DNA of 64,000 nt from Streptomyces sp. SUK 48 (GTDB lineage Bacteria > Actinomycetota > Actinomycetes > Streptomycetales > Streptomycetaceae): the NCBI RefSeq assembly GCF_009650765.1, contig NZ_CP045740.1:5866001-5930000 (forward strand), written 5' to 3'. Each line of letters starts with the position of its first letter. The first letter of the stretch is position 1. Under the pieces are notes generated by a model. The model saw only the letters and a program-made list of their open reading frames with translations. It did no database searches and was not told where the DNA came from. Below, piece after piece: positions 12,880 through 24,145 of the stretch. Position numbers and translations under genes: made by a program.

Positions 12880-14730
12880 TCAGAGGCCGAGCTCGACCTC
12901 GAACTCGCCGGCCTCCAGGATCGCCTTGACCGCCGTCAGGTAACGGGCCGCGTCGGCGCCGTCGACCAGGCGGTGGTCGTAGGAGAGGGTCAGGTAGGTC
13001 ATGTCGCGGACGCCGATGACCGTGCCCTCCTCGGTCTCGATGACGGCCGGACGCTTGACCGTGGCACCGATGCCGAGGATCGCGACCTGGCCCGGCGGCA
13101 CGATGATCGTGTCGAACAGGGCACCGCGCGAACCGGTGTTGGAGATGGTGAAGGTCCCGCCGGACAGCTCGTCCGGGGTGATCTTGTTGGCGCGGACCTT
13201 GCCGGCCAGCTCCGCCGTGGCCTTGGCGATGCCCGCGATGTTGAGGTCGCCGGCGCGCTTGATGACCGGGGTCATCAGGCCCTTCTCGGAGTCCACCGCG
13301 ATACCGACGTTCTCGGTGTCGAAGTAGGTGATCGTGCCCTCGGCCTCGTTGATCTTGGCGTTGATGACCGGGTGGGCCTTCAGCGCCTGCGCGGCGGCCT
13401 TGACGAAGAACGGCATCGGGGAGAGCTTGACGCCCTCACGGGCCGCGAAGGAGTCCTTCGCCTGGCCGCGCAGCCGCATCAGACGCGTCACGTCGACCTC
13501 GACGACCGACGACAGCTGGGCCTGCTCGTGCAGCGCCTTGACCATGTTGTCGCCGATGACCTTGCGGATGCGGGTCATCTTGACGGTCTGGCCGCGCAGC
13601 GGGGAGACCTCCAGCGCCGGGGCCTTCTTGGCCGCCGGGGCGGTCGCGGCGGCCGGAGCCGGAGCGGCGGCGGGCGCCTTCGCGGCCTCGGCGGCGGAGA
13701 TGACGTCCTGCTTGCGGATACGGCCGCCGACGCCGGTGCCCTTGACGGTGGCCAGGTCGACGCTGTTCTCGGCGGCGAGCTTGCGCACCAGCGGGGTCAC
13801 GTACGCGCCCTCGTCCGTCGCCTGGGTGGCGGTCGGGGAGGTCGGCGCGGTGGCCGGGGTGACCGGAGCCTGAGCCTGAGCGGGCGCCGGAGCCTGAGCG
13901 GGCGCCTGAGCCGGAGCCGGGGCGGCGGGCTGCGCCGGGGCGGCCGGAGCCGCAGCCGGAGCGGCCTGAGCCGGGGCCGCGGGGGCGGCCGGAGCCTGAG
14001 CCGGGGCGGCCGGGGCGGGAGCCGGGGTGGGCTCGGCGGCCGGGGCCGGGGCGGCGGCCGGGGCCGGGGCGGCCGGAGCCGGAGCGGCGGCCGGGGCGGC
14101 ACCCGGGGCGCCGATGACGGCGAGCTTGGCGCCGACCTCGGCGGTCTCGTCCTCGCCGACCACGATCTCCAGCAGCACACCGGAGGTGGGCGCGGGGATC
14201 TCGGTGTCGACCTTGTCCGTGGAGACCTCGAGCAGCGGCTCGTCGGCCTCGACGGAGTCGCCGACCGACTTCAGCCAGCGGGTGACGGTGCCCTCGGTGA
14301 CGGACTCACCGAGCGCGGGCAGGACCACGTCGGTGCCCTGGGCGCCACCGGCGGGGGCGGCGTCCTCGGCGGCCGGAGCCGGCGCGGCGGGGGCCTCGGC
14401 GGCCGGCGCCTGGGCGGGCTCGGCGGCCGGGGCCGGAGCCTCGGCGGGGGCCTCGGCGGCGGCCGGGGCCGGGGCCTCGGCGGGGGCGCCGCTGCCGTCG
14501 TCGATCAGGGCCAGCTCGGCACCGACCTCGACGGTCTCGTCCTCGGCGACCTTGATGGACGCCAGCACGCCGGAGACGGGCGAGGGGATCTCGGTGTCGA
14601 CCTTGTCGGTCGAGACCTCGAGCAGCGGCTCGTCGGCCTCGACGCGTTCACCCTCGGCCTTCAGCCAGCGGGTGACGGTGCCCTCGGTGACGCTCTCACC
14701 GAGCGCCGGAAGGGTTACGGAAACCGCCAT
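12880..14730 (-). CDS. sucB: 2-oxoacid dehydrogenase E2 (dihydrolipoyl acyltransferase) with two lipoyl domains
   Basis: The product is 616 aa. Two lipoyl domains (residues 1-77 and about 133-207), each with the lipoylated Lys in [10 protein letters not shown] (first Lys43), are joined by long Ala/Pro-rich linkers. A peripheral E3/E1-binding domain follows ([29 protein letters not shown]), then the catalytic acetyltransferase core ending in [15 protein letters not shown] with the active His and Asp. Streptomyces annotations call it SucB. In actinobacteria one such E2 is known to serve both pyruvate and 2-oxoglutarate complexes (Corynebacterium), and the neighbours aceE and lpd suit that. The gene precedes none of its partners directly; lpd is 60 nt upstream on the same strand. 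Confidence 0.93.
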
Positions 14731-20672: not shown

Positions 20673-22499
20673 TCATCGGCGCGCCCCGAGCCGTCCCCGG
20701 TGCGCCCACTTGGGCAGTCCCGGCGCCTCCAGGAAGCCCTCCGCGCGGGCCGAGGCGAGGCCGATGCGCGGCAGGTCCGCGCTCTTCTCGAAGAGCAGGA
20801 ACCGCGGCTCCCAGATGGGCCGGTACTTGGCGTTGGCGCGGTACAGCGACTCGATCTGCCACCAGCGGGAGAAGAAGCTGAGCAGCGAGCGCCACAGCCG
20901 CAGCACCGGTCCGGCGCCGAGCCGCGCACCACGTTCGAAGACCGAGCGGAACATCGCGAAGTTGAGCGAGACCTGTGTGACCCCGATCTCCCCGGCGCGC
21001 CGCAGCAGTTCGATGACCATGAACTCCATCAGCCCGTTCTCGCAGGCGCGGTCCCGCCGCATCAGGTCCAGCGACAGCCCGCCCGGGCCCCACGGCACGA
21101 AGGACAGCAGCGCGCGCGGCCGTCCCTCGGCGTCCCTGCACTCCAGCATCACGCACCGGCCGTCCGCCGGGTCCCCGAGCCGCCCCAGCGCCATGCTGAA
21201 CCCGCGCTCGGTCGCCCCGTCCCGCCAGTCGTCCGCGCGCTCGACGAGCACCGCCATCTCGGCCGCCGGGATGTCCTCGTGGCGCCGCACGCGCACCTCG
21301 TACCCGGCCCGCCGCACCCGGTTGTACGCCTGCCGCACGGTGCGCATCGCCCGCCCCTCCAAGGTGAAGTCGGCGACCTCCACGAGCGCCTCGTCGCCGA
21401 GCTCCAGGGCGTCCAGGCCGTGCCGGTGGTAGACGGTGCCGGCTTCCTCGCCCGCCCCCATCACCGCCGGGATCCAGCCGTGCGCCCGCGCCTCGGCCAG
21501 CCACGGCACGATCGCGCCCGGCCATGCCTCGGGGTCGCCGAGCGGGTCCCCGGAGGCGAGGCTCACCCCGCCGACCACGCGATAGGCGACGGCCGCCTTG
21601 CCGGTCGGCGACCACACCACGCTCTTCTCCCGGCGCAGCGCGAAGTAGCCGAGGGAGTCCCGCTCGCCGTGCCGCTCCAGCAGCGCCCGCAGCCGTTCCT
21701 CGTCGTCGGCGGTGAGCGGGTCGACGGCGCGCCGGGAGCGGAAGGCGGCGTAGAACACGGCGAGGACCAGGGCCGTGCTGAGCACGTTGACGACCACGTT
21801 GGCCCAGGTGGGAGGGGCGATGCCGGGGAAGTGGCGCTCGTCGGCGGAGACCGAGACCAGGCGCAGGGTGCCGTAGTGCCAGCGTTCCCAGAACGTCGAA
21901 CGGGCCGCGTCCGGCGCGTGGTTGGTGACCGTCACCAGCAGCCCGGCCAGCAGGCTGGCGGCCAGCCCGCCGCCGACGGCGACGGTGGCGGCGAGCCGGG
22001 GGTTGGCGCGGTCGCCCTTCGCGTAGAACTCCCGCCGCCCCACCAGCAGCGCCGCGACGAACACGGCCGTCAGTACCAGCGACACCCAGTTCTGCGCGTA
22101 CCGGTGGATCTCCGGGAACGCCATGGCGAACGCGAACAGCGCGAGGAAGACGCCGCTGAGCACGAGGTTGAGAATCCAGGCCGCGCGCTTGCGGCGGCGC
22201 ATCGTGACCGCCAGGAACGCGGTGAACACACCGGAGGCGAAGCCGGCGGTCAGCAGGTACGGCGTGAAGAAGTCGTCCTGGTTGTGCCGGCGCACGTCCT
22301 GGTACAGCGAGACCCACACCGCGGTGAGGAAGTTGATGAACGCGACGACCCGCAGGTACCAGACGGCGAAGGCCGCGGCCTTGGGGGCCACCCCGCCCGA
22401 CCGCCGCCCGGCCTCGTCCGACCGCTCCGCTTCGACCGACCGCTCCGCCCCGCGCGCGGCGCGGTGGCAATCCGGGCATCTCCCATGGGAACGGATCAT
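20673..22499 (-). CDS. Membrane protein with C-terminal DUF2156 (phosphatidylglycerol lysyltransferase-like) domain
   Basis: The product is 608 aa. Residues about 35-240 hold six membrane helices; residues about 265-590 form a two-lobed GNAT-like DUF2156 domain as in MprF and the mycobacterial LysX fusion, with [20 protein letters not shown] and [12 protein letters not shown]. Such proteins transfer an aminoacyl group from tRNA to phosphatidylglycerol, lowering surface charge. This one has no lysyl-tRNA synthetase part. The N-terminus carries RCPDCHR. The ATG at 22499 follows AAGGTGG; the frame stays open far upstream only because it crosses the repeat array. Substrate amino acid unknown. Confidence 0.85.
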
Positions 22500-22584
22500 A
22501 TGGGCGCCACCTTGACGGACCGCTCTTATCGAGCCAGGGCCCGCGCGGGTCTCACCGGCACGGTGGCGCAGGAGTGTCATCCCG

Positions 22585-22616
22585 CCGCGACGGCGCTCGG
22601 CCGCGACGGCGCTCGG
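22585..22616. repeat. Tandem 16-bp repeat
   Basis: CCGCGACGGCGCTCGG occurs twice back to back, with a third partial copy. It lies in the leader of the DUF2156 gene. The role is unknown. Confidence 0.6.
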
Positions 22617-22663
22617 CCGGGACGGCGCGGCCCGGCGGTGCCGAACCGGCCGCCACCCGTCTA

Positions 22664-23041
22664 TGCCGACTCCGGCCCCGGCTCCAGCTCCGGCCCCGGC
22701 TCCAGCTCCGGCCCCGGCTCCAGCTCCGGCCCCGGCTCCGGCTCCGGCCCCGGCTCCAGCTCCGGCCCCGGCTCCGGCTCCGGTCCCGATCGCGACTCCG
22801 GCCCCGGCTCCAACCCCGGTCCCGGCTCCGGCCCCGGTCCCGGCTCCGGCCCCGGCTCCGACTCCGGCCCCGGCTCCGACTCCGGTCCCGGTCCCGACTC
22901 CGGCCCCGGCTCCGACTCCGGTCCCGGTCCCGACTCCGGCCCCGGCTCCGACTCCGGTCCCGGTCCCGACTCCGGCCCCGGCTCCGACTCCGGTCCCGGT
23001 CCCGACTCCGGCCCCGGCTCCGGCTTTCGCGCCGGCTCCGG
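22664..23041 (-). repeat. Pro/Glu/Gly/Ser-coding tandem repeat in frame behind the cobT stop
   Basis: This 378-nt array of 6-, 12-, 18- and 36-bp units contains four exact 36-bp copies at 22868-23011. In the cobT frame it encodes, without a stop, 126 codons of Pro-Glu-Ser/Leu/Pro-Gly repeats (12-residue unit [12 protein letters not shown]), from just after the cobT TAG (23042-23044) to a second TAG at 22661-22663. The other minus frame gives Gly/Ala/Val/Thr runs and the plus strand gives Pro/Ala runs, so several long but spurious frames cross it. The cobT C-terminus ([18 protein letters not shown]) has the same composition, so the array looks like a former or readthrough tail of CobT. Confidence 0.8.
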
Positions 23042-24145
23042 CTACGACTCCAGCCCCGGCTCCGGCTCCTTCTCGGTCTCCGGCTCGGGCTCGGGCTCCG
23101 GCTCCCGCTCCGGCATCTCCGCGGCCAGCGCCGCCGCGGCCTGCACCAGGGGGAGCGCCAGCAGCGCGCCCGCGCCCTCGCCGACCTTCACGCCCTGCTG
23201 GAGCAGCGGCTCCAGGGCCATCCGGTCCAGCGCCTTCGCCTGCCCCGGCTCCCCGCTGTCGTGCGCCGCCAGCCACCAGTCCGGCGCCCGGAACGCGACC
23301 CGCTGCGCGACCAGCGCGCACGCCGCGCTCACCACGCCGTCCAGGATCACCGGCAGCTTGCGCACCGCGCACTGGAGCAGGAACCCGGTCATCGCCGCGA
23401 GGTCCGCCCCGCCGACCGCGGCCAGCAGCCGCGTCTGGTCGCCGAGCACCGGCCGCGCCCGGCGCAGCGCGTCCCGGATCGCCGCGCACTTGCGCATCCA
23501 GGCGAGGTCGTCGATCGCGACACCGCCCCGCCCGGTCACCACCGACGCGTCGGTCCCGCACAGCGCCGCGATCAGCACCGCGGCCGCGGTGGTGCCGCCC
23601 ACGCTGATGTCGCCGAGCACCACCAGGTCCGTACCGGAGTCGGCCTCCTCGTCGGCCACGGCGATACCGGCCCGCAGCGCGGCGTCCGCCTCCTCCTCGG
23701 TGAGCGCGTCCTCGATGTCGATACGGCCGCTGCCACGCCGCACCCGGTGCCGTACGACGTCCTCGGGGAGGTCGGCCGGGTCGCAGTCCAGGGCCACGTC
23801 CACGACCCGGACCGGCACCTGGAGCCGGCGCGCCAGCACCGCGGCGGGGCTCACGCCCTCCAGCACGTCCCGCACCAGCTCCCGCGCGCCGCCCGCGGGC
23901 CGCACCGAGACGTCCAGTCCGGCGATGCCGTGGTCGCCGGCGAAGAGGATCAGCCGCGGCCGTTCGACGGTCCGTACCGGTACGGCGCTCTGCGCGGCGG
24001 CCAGCCACTCGCCCAGCTCGTCCAGGCGCCCCAGCGCCCCGGGCGGCACGATCTGGCGCTCTCGCCGGGTCTCGGCGTCACGGCGCATGCCTCCGTCCGG
24101 GCGCTCGATCAGATCGGTGAACTCGTCCAGATCAATCCTGCTCAT
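23042..24145 (-). CDS. cobT: Nicotinate-nucleotide-dimethylbenzimidazole phosphoribosyltransferase
   Basis: Makes alpha-ribazole phosphate from nicotinate mononucleotide and the lower-ligand base for cobalamin. The product is 367 aa. Motifs include [54 protein letters not shown] and [20 protein letters not shown], where the Glu near residue 330 is the catalytic base. After the enzyme fold the last 20 residues are a Pro/Glu tail that ends at a TAG inside a repeat array which keeps coding the same kind of sequence. The ATG at 24145 is preceded by TACTGT 7 nt away, so it is probably leaderless. It is divergent from a methyltransferase gene. Confidence 0.95.

Follow-up and report, generated by a model that had tools for sequence, protein, structure and literature searches.

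The cobT gene of Streptomyces sp. SUK 48 ends at a TAG codon, and beyond this codon the same reading frame stays open until a second TAG is reached. The locus raises the question of which of the two stops is the old one, whether the stretch in between is ever translated, and how it came to be there. We have addressed this question for a window of 64,000 nucleotides (G000:C1:5866001-5930000) from a genome that forms one contig of 8.34 Mb. The features discussed below are collected in Table 1.

cobT, its two stops and the repeat array

The protein encoded by cobT is matched by the Pfam profile PF02277 (DBI_PRT) with 335.7 bits, against a cut-off of 22.6, over profile positions 1-323 of 329. With a nearly full-length domain and a score above the curated cut-off, CobT is a member of this family, and its activity as a phosphoribosyltransferase acting on NaMN and the lower-ligand base is predicted from the domain. 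A search of solved structures with CobT matched 10 distinct sequences, eight of which are named CobT or carry the name of its enzyme, while two are ArsA/ArsB. Matches to the solved CobT structures reach at most residue 345 of the 366 residues of the query, and the tail lies beyond. CobT of the window shares with the PF02277 family the near full-length domain and, in the adjoining ORFs, neighbors that we take to resemble cobS and cobU. In contrast to the solved relatives it has an extra low-complexity C-terminal tail, as is found elsewhere in Streptomyces.

Table 1. Positions of the features at the cobT locus, in coordinates of the window.
Feature	Position	Strand	Remarks
cobT, stand-alone NaMN:DMB phosphoribosyltransferase	24142-23042	minus	366 aa as now terminated; PF02277
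First TAG	23044-23042	minus	current end of cobT; probably a derived nonsense codon
Open run of 126 codons (Pro/Glu/Gly/Ser)	22664..23041	minus	GAGCCG hexamers in 18- and 36-bp units
Four exact head-to-tail 36-bp copies	22866..23009		starts at 22866, 22902, 22938 and 22974 on the plus strand
Second TAG	22663-22661	minus	putative ancestral cobT stop
61-nt GC-rich block, CGGGTGGCGGCCGGTTCGGCACCGCC-like	22600..22660	minus	directly 3' of the second TAG; 381 nt past the first
Phosphatidylglycerol lysyltransferase-like gene	20673..22499	minus	PF09924, 337.2 bits; PF16995, 60 bits; start codon predicted

The final residues of CobT before the first TAG are Glu-Pro repeats. They belong to an array that TRF delimits at 22666-23114 and that spans both sides of the first TAG (period 18, 25.3 copies, score 464). 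Its head-to-tail copies exceed the score threshold of TRF, and the array is thus a tandem repeat, a minisatellite. The first TAG stands in the context GAG TCG TAG CCG GAG CCG, where the repeat unit reads GAG TCG GAG CCG GGG CCG, and a single base separates it from the GAG expected in the repeat register. The positions of both stops, the 126 codons and the four 36-bp units had been given exactly in the initial annotation. Its description of the codons past the stop as having the same composition holds in so far as Pro and Glu carry on, but the composition shifts slightly since Gly and Ser join them.

The open frame and the CobT tails of Streptomyces

Readthrough cannot be deduced from a long open frame that follows a stop in GC-rich repeats, and the locus calls for this caution. 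The 378-bp stretch beyond the first TAG is free of stops in all six frames, because the array is built of hexamers whose unit contains no stop in any phase. We therefore rejected the open frame as evidence for coding. Stop-to-stop gaps of at least 126 codons account for 238 of the 1526 gaps in the window, and when the stretch was simulated with a first-order Markov model, 126 codons stayed open in 3434 of 5000 runs. What chance does not account for is the repeat, together with the fact that it continues across the first stop. Most of the variation within the array affects codon positions at which the amino acid of the Pro-Glu frame is altered. We discarded this pattern as a selection test on the Pro-Glu frame since the copies are not independent, which leaves it as absence of evidence only.

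For the comparison with other Streptomyces, cobT loci were drawn from the best 80 of 508 matches, 90 (the window's own among them) were added from 291 of 295 matching genomes, and the window's own locus was included a second time; they are thus the closest loci by score and no random sample of the genus. The count of in-frame continuations used 161 of these 171 loci (nine without the anchor motif and one without a stop were left out), of which 150 are distinct and 147, including the window, have a second stop in reach. The count of block offsets given below relied on a relaxed motif and used 170 loci (L038 was left out), 158 of them distinct, with the window counted once. Past the conserved LALP motif the tail has a median length of 37 aa in the other 157 loci, with quartiles of 30-47 and a maximum of 151. 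The present tail of the window, with 35 residues past LALP, is of normal length for the genus. Run to the second TAG it would have 162 residues, counting one at the first TAG and the 126 codons, and would exceed all others. The initial annotation had called an acidic tail on this enzyme unusual, which is wrong for the genus: among the 158 loci, 131 of the 134 tails of at least 25 aa contain at least 20% Glu+Asp. At least three tandem amino-acid units occur in 15 of the 158 tails. Judged from these loci, an acidic and repeat-prone CobT tail is a normal and fast-changing trait in Streptomyces.

It had also been proposed that the first TAG is read through to give a long acidic tail, which would then belong to a minor CobT product running to the second TAG. 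The frame is indeed open and in phase, and in the minimum-energy fold a short hairpin starts directly after the first TAG, although the array is self-complementary throughout. TAG is moreover the commonest cobT stop of the sample (89 of 158 loci), an observation that is equally in line with termination. Against readthrough stands first the lack of a comparable continuation in the other loci: an in-frame run after the stop that spans 20 codons or more and consists of Glu+Pro to at least 40% occurs in one of the 147 distinct Streptomyces loci, and this one is the window itself, so that an in-frame extension conserved in these relatives was not found. The 162 residues of such a tail would also surpass the maximum of the others. 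A suppressor tRNA as the agent was rejected, since a CTA anticodon is absent from the 68 tRNA-family places of the genome. For 67 of these ARAGORN assigned an anticodon, which is never CTA, and the remaining place (L271 206-277), at which ARAGORN made no call, reads UCC in the Rfam alignment. The RNA fold of the array has a z of -5.8, a value that we ascribe to the self-complementary CCGG repeat without reading function into it. Bacterial genes with stop-codon readthrough have a long in-frame extension past a stop. The window shares such an extension with them, but here the extension is not conserved, no suppressor tRNA was found and all frames are open. For genes of this kind see the review PMC5009743. 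A literature search, which covered titles and the beginnings of abstracts and at that depth is no proof of absence, showed among the papers listed none on a CobT tail or its readthrough. The proposal of a translated long tail is therefore without support, and we regard readthrough as very improbable. Even less credit would we give to the idea of the array as a length switch, in which slippage together with gain and loss of stops toggles between short and long acidic CobT tails among cells or strains, with some readthrough as the source of the long form.

Age of the two stops and growth of the array

The relative age of the two stops can be approached from the DNA that follows them. From the second TAG onward the window aligns with the DNA that starts at the cobT stop of locus L087, TAG on TAG, with 70.7% identity over 208 nt (E 6e-23). 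Locus L005 gives the same alignment with 70.2%, again TAG on TAG, and in both the alignment extends as far as the region where the downstream gene starts; the two loci are close to each other, so that they are not two independent witnesses. In a third locus, L095, the alignment has a length of 30 nt (E 0.002), and the two TAGs again coincide. These alignments would make the distal stop of the window homologous to the cobT stop of its relatives.

The 61-nt block that directly follows the second TAG points in the same direction. Of the 158 distinct loci, 30 have a match to it that exceeds the 99% level of 158 shuffles. The putative start of the block lies between -6 and +12 nt from the cobT stop in 20 of them and 24-288 nt away in the remaining 10. 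No block above the null was found in the other 128 loci in a scan from -60 to +360 nt, a range that the window's own copy exceeds. Also L010 and L084, the loci with the nearest DNA (protein 92% identical), have no scoring block after the stop. Block-like stretches are present at other sites in several Streptomyces genomes, and the block may be a dispersed intergenic repeat; taken by itself, it could have been inserted independently. When up to 3 mismatches are allowed, the 27-base core of the block occurs once in the window's genome. Stem-loops are predicted for the 89 nt that start with the second TAG, but they are no better than those of shuffles (z -0.46). From the flank alignments and the block offset in 20 of the 30 scoring loci, the second TAG is most simply read as the ancestral stop and the first TAG as the new one.

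The time at which the array grew is indicated by the nearest relatives. A tree calculated from 166 CobTs puts the protein of the window beside six others, which come from S. murinus, S. griseofuscus, S. incarnatus and further strains (support 0.80); L010 and another two proteins join this group in the enclosing clade (support 0.98). From the best 120 of 1816 passing matches 18 proteins were read, and eight of these are in the tree. The six nearest CobTs have 374-381 aa and short acidic tails, some of which end in PESAPE, PESASE or PEPESE; the 26 best matches are all 370-381 aa long. Since the nearest relatives have short tails, the expansion would be specific to the branch of the window. The nearest species, whose DNA was found neither among the 80 named loci nor in the other genomes searched, were compared by protein, and their low-complexity tails do not permit an alignment at the level of codons; taken by themselves, the tails of the sister proteins would agree with either stop to about the same degree. 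The initial annotation had offered repeat expansion beyond a fixed stop as one possibility. Its expansion part is in keeping with the short tails of the six nearest CobTs, but a fixed old stop is not, since of the two stops the distal one seems to be the older. The proposal of a tail cut short by one point mutation fared best, as the second TAG adjoins the flank that follows the stop in relatives and the first TAG is one base from GAG.

We thus favor, with a probability of about three quarters, an ordinary cobT whose tail array has grown by slippage in this lineage and has acquired a new nonsense codon, in either order. The low-complexity acidic region at the C-terminus would have been lengthened through slippage of GAGCCG-type units, and a probable point mutation from GAG to TAG within the array would have created the new stop, while the second TAG was kept as the old stop downstream. 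The enzyme would now stop after its 35-residue tail, and the 126 codons beyond would be an untranslated 3' stretch. Genes are known in which a lineage-specific minisatellite expansion is combined with a nonsense mutation in the array. With these the window shares the in-phase array, the new stop inside it and the old stop kept downstream, and differs from them only in particulars. The locus would then be a clean case of a housekeeping enzyme whose tail grows by repeat slippage and is then trimmed by a stop codon. What is known about CobT is unchanged by the finding, which reflects the ordinary evolution of a variable tail.

As to the order of the two events, we lean towards expansion followed by the nonsense mutation. 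The reverse order, in which the nonsense mutation arose in a short tail and the array expanded afterwards in already untranslated DNA between the new and the old stop, is possible although rather less likely. A protein that has never grown would fit the short tails of the sisters and the normal 35-aa tail of the window, and the prevalence of changes that would alter an amino acid in the Pro-Glu frame reveals no constraint on a peptide; the phase of the hexamers would hold any frame open, whether coding or not. However, with 23114 as its beginning the array reaches into cobT ahead of the first TAG, so slippage has affected coding DNA as well.

Two further readings concern the origin of the first TAG itself. 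It might be an error of sequencing or polishing in the GC-rich repeat, in which case CobT would really end at the second TAG. Its distance of one base from the GAG of the repeat register and the single assembly behind the sequence would be compatible with this, but the genome is a single contig, and no tail among the 158 would be longer than the resulting one. In GC-rich repeats of this type substitution errors are less usual than indels, and the array contains no frame-breaking indel. We consider such an error improbable. A little more doubtful still seems an origin of the first TAG by tandem duplication, in which the old stop would have been copied along with the tail. The codon pair GAG TCG does stand just before both stops, but as it recurs throughout the array this likeness is cheap; the second stop has, unlike the first, an additional GCA codon, and a point change needs a single step.

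The downstream gene and other sites in the genome

The array is also connected by frame to the lysyltransferase-like gene downstream. The frame of this gene is the Gly-Ala frame of the array, and an ORF at 24008-20673 (minus) is open from within cobT through the array into the gene. A ribosomal frameshift in the array could in principle fuse CobT to the lysyltransferase-like protein, and the frame of the latter, which remains open back into cobT as Gly-Ala repeats, is what speaks for it. But all six frames are open in the array, and the gene has a start region of its own. Upstream of it, at 22480-22510 (minus), CATATGATC is followed by CATGGGAGATGCCCG, and both are strongly conserved in many relatives. 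They are possibly the promoter and the start region, and the conservation of the start region in so many relatives argues for an independent start of the gene. A fusion by frameshifting has next to no probability in our view. A scan of 22400-23120 for terminators and promoters found none.

A search of a plasmid collection gave no match. Within the window the array has a match at 13841-14097, which we rejected as the ordinary Ala-Pro linker of the gene at 12880-14730 (minus), presumably a dihydrolipoamide acyltransferase-like gene.

Elsewhere in the genome there is a second CobT of 802 aa (L001 118-2526; G000:C1 near 6565228-6566241), which is fused to a domain of the nitroreductase family and has a long Ala/Pro-rich N-terminus. 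The nitroreductase-family domain is presumably BluB-like, and the layout is similar to that of the BluB/CobT2 fusion of Propionibacterium (PMC4657239). At a distance of 9 kb from this second CobT, and about 2 kb from a tRNA cluster, lies a site (L280, G000:C1:6574800-6576900) at which overlapping matches of about 70% identity to the cobT array extend over some 1.1 kb.
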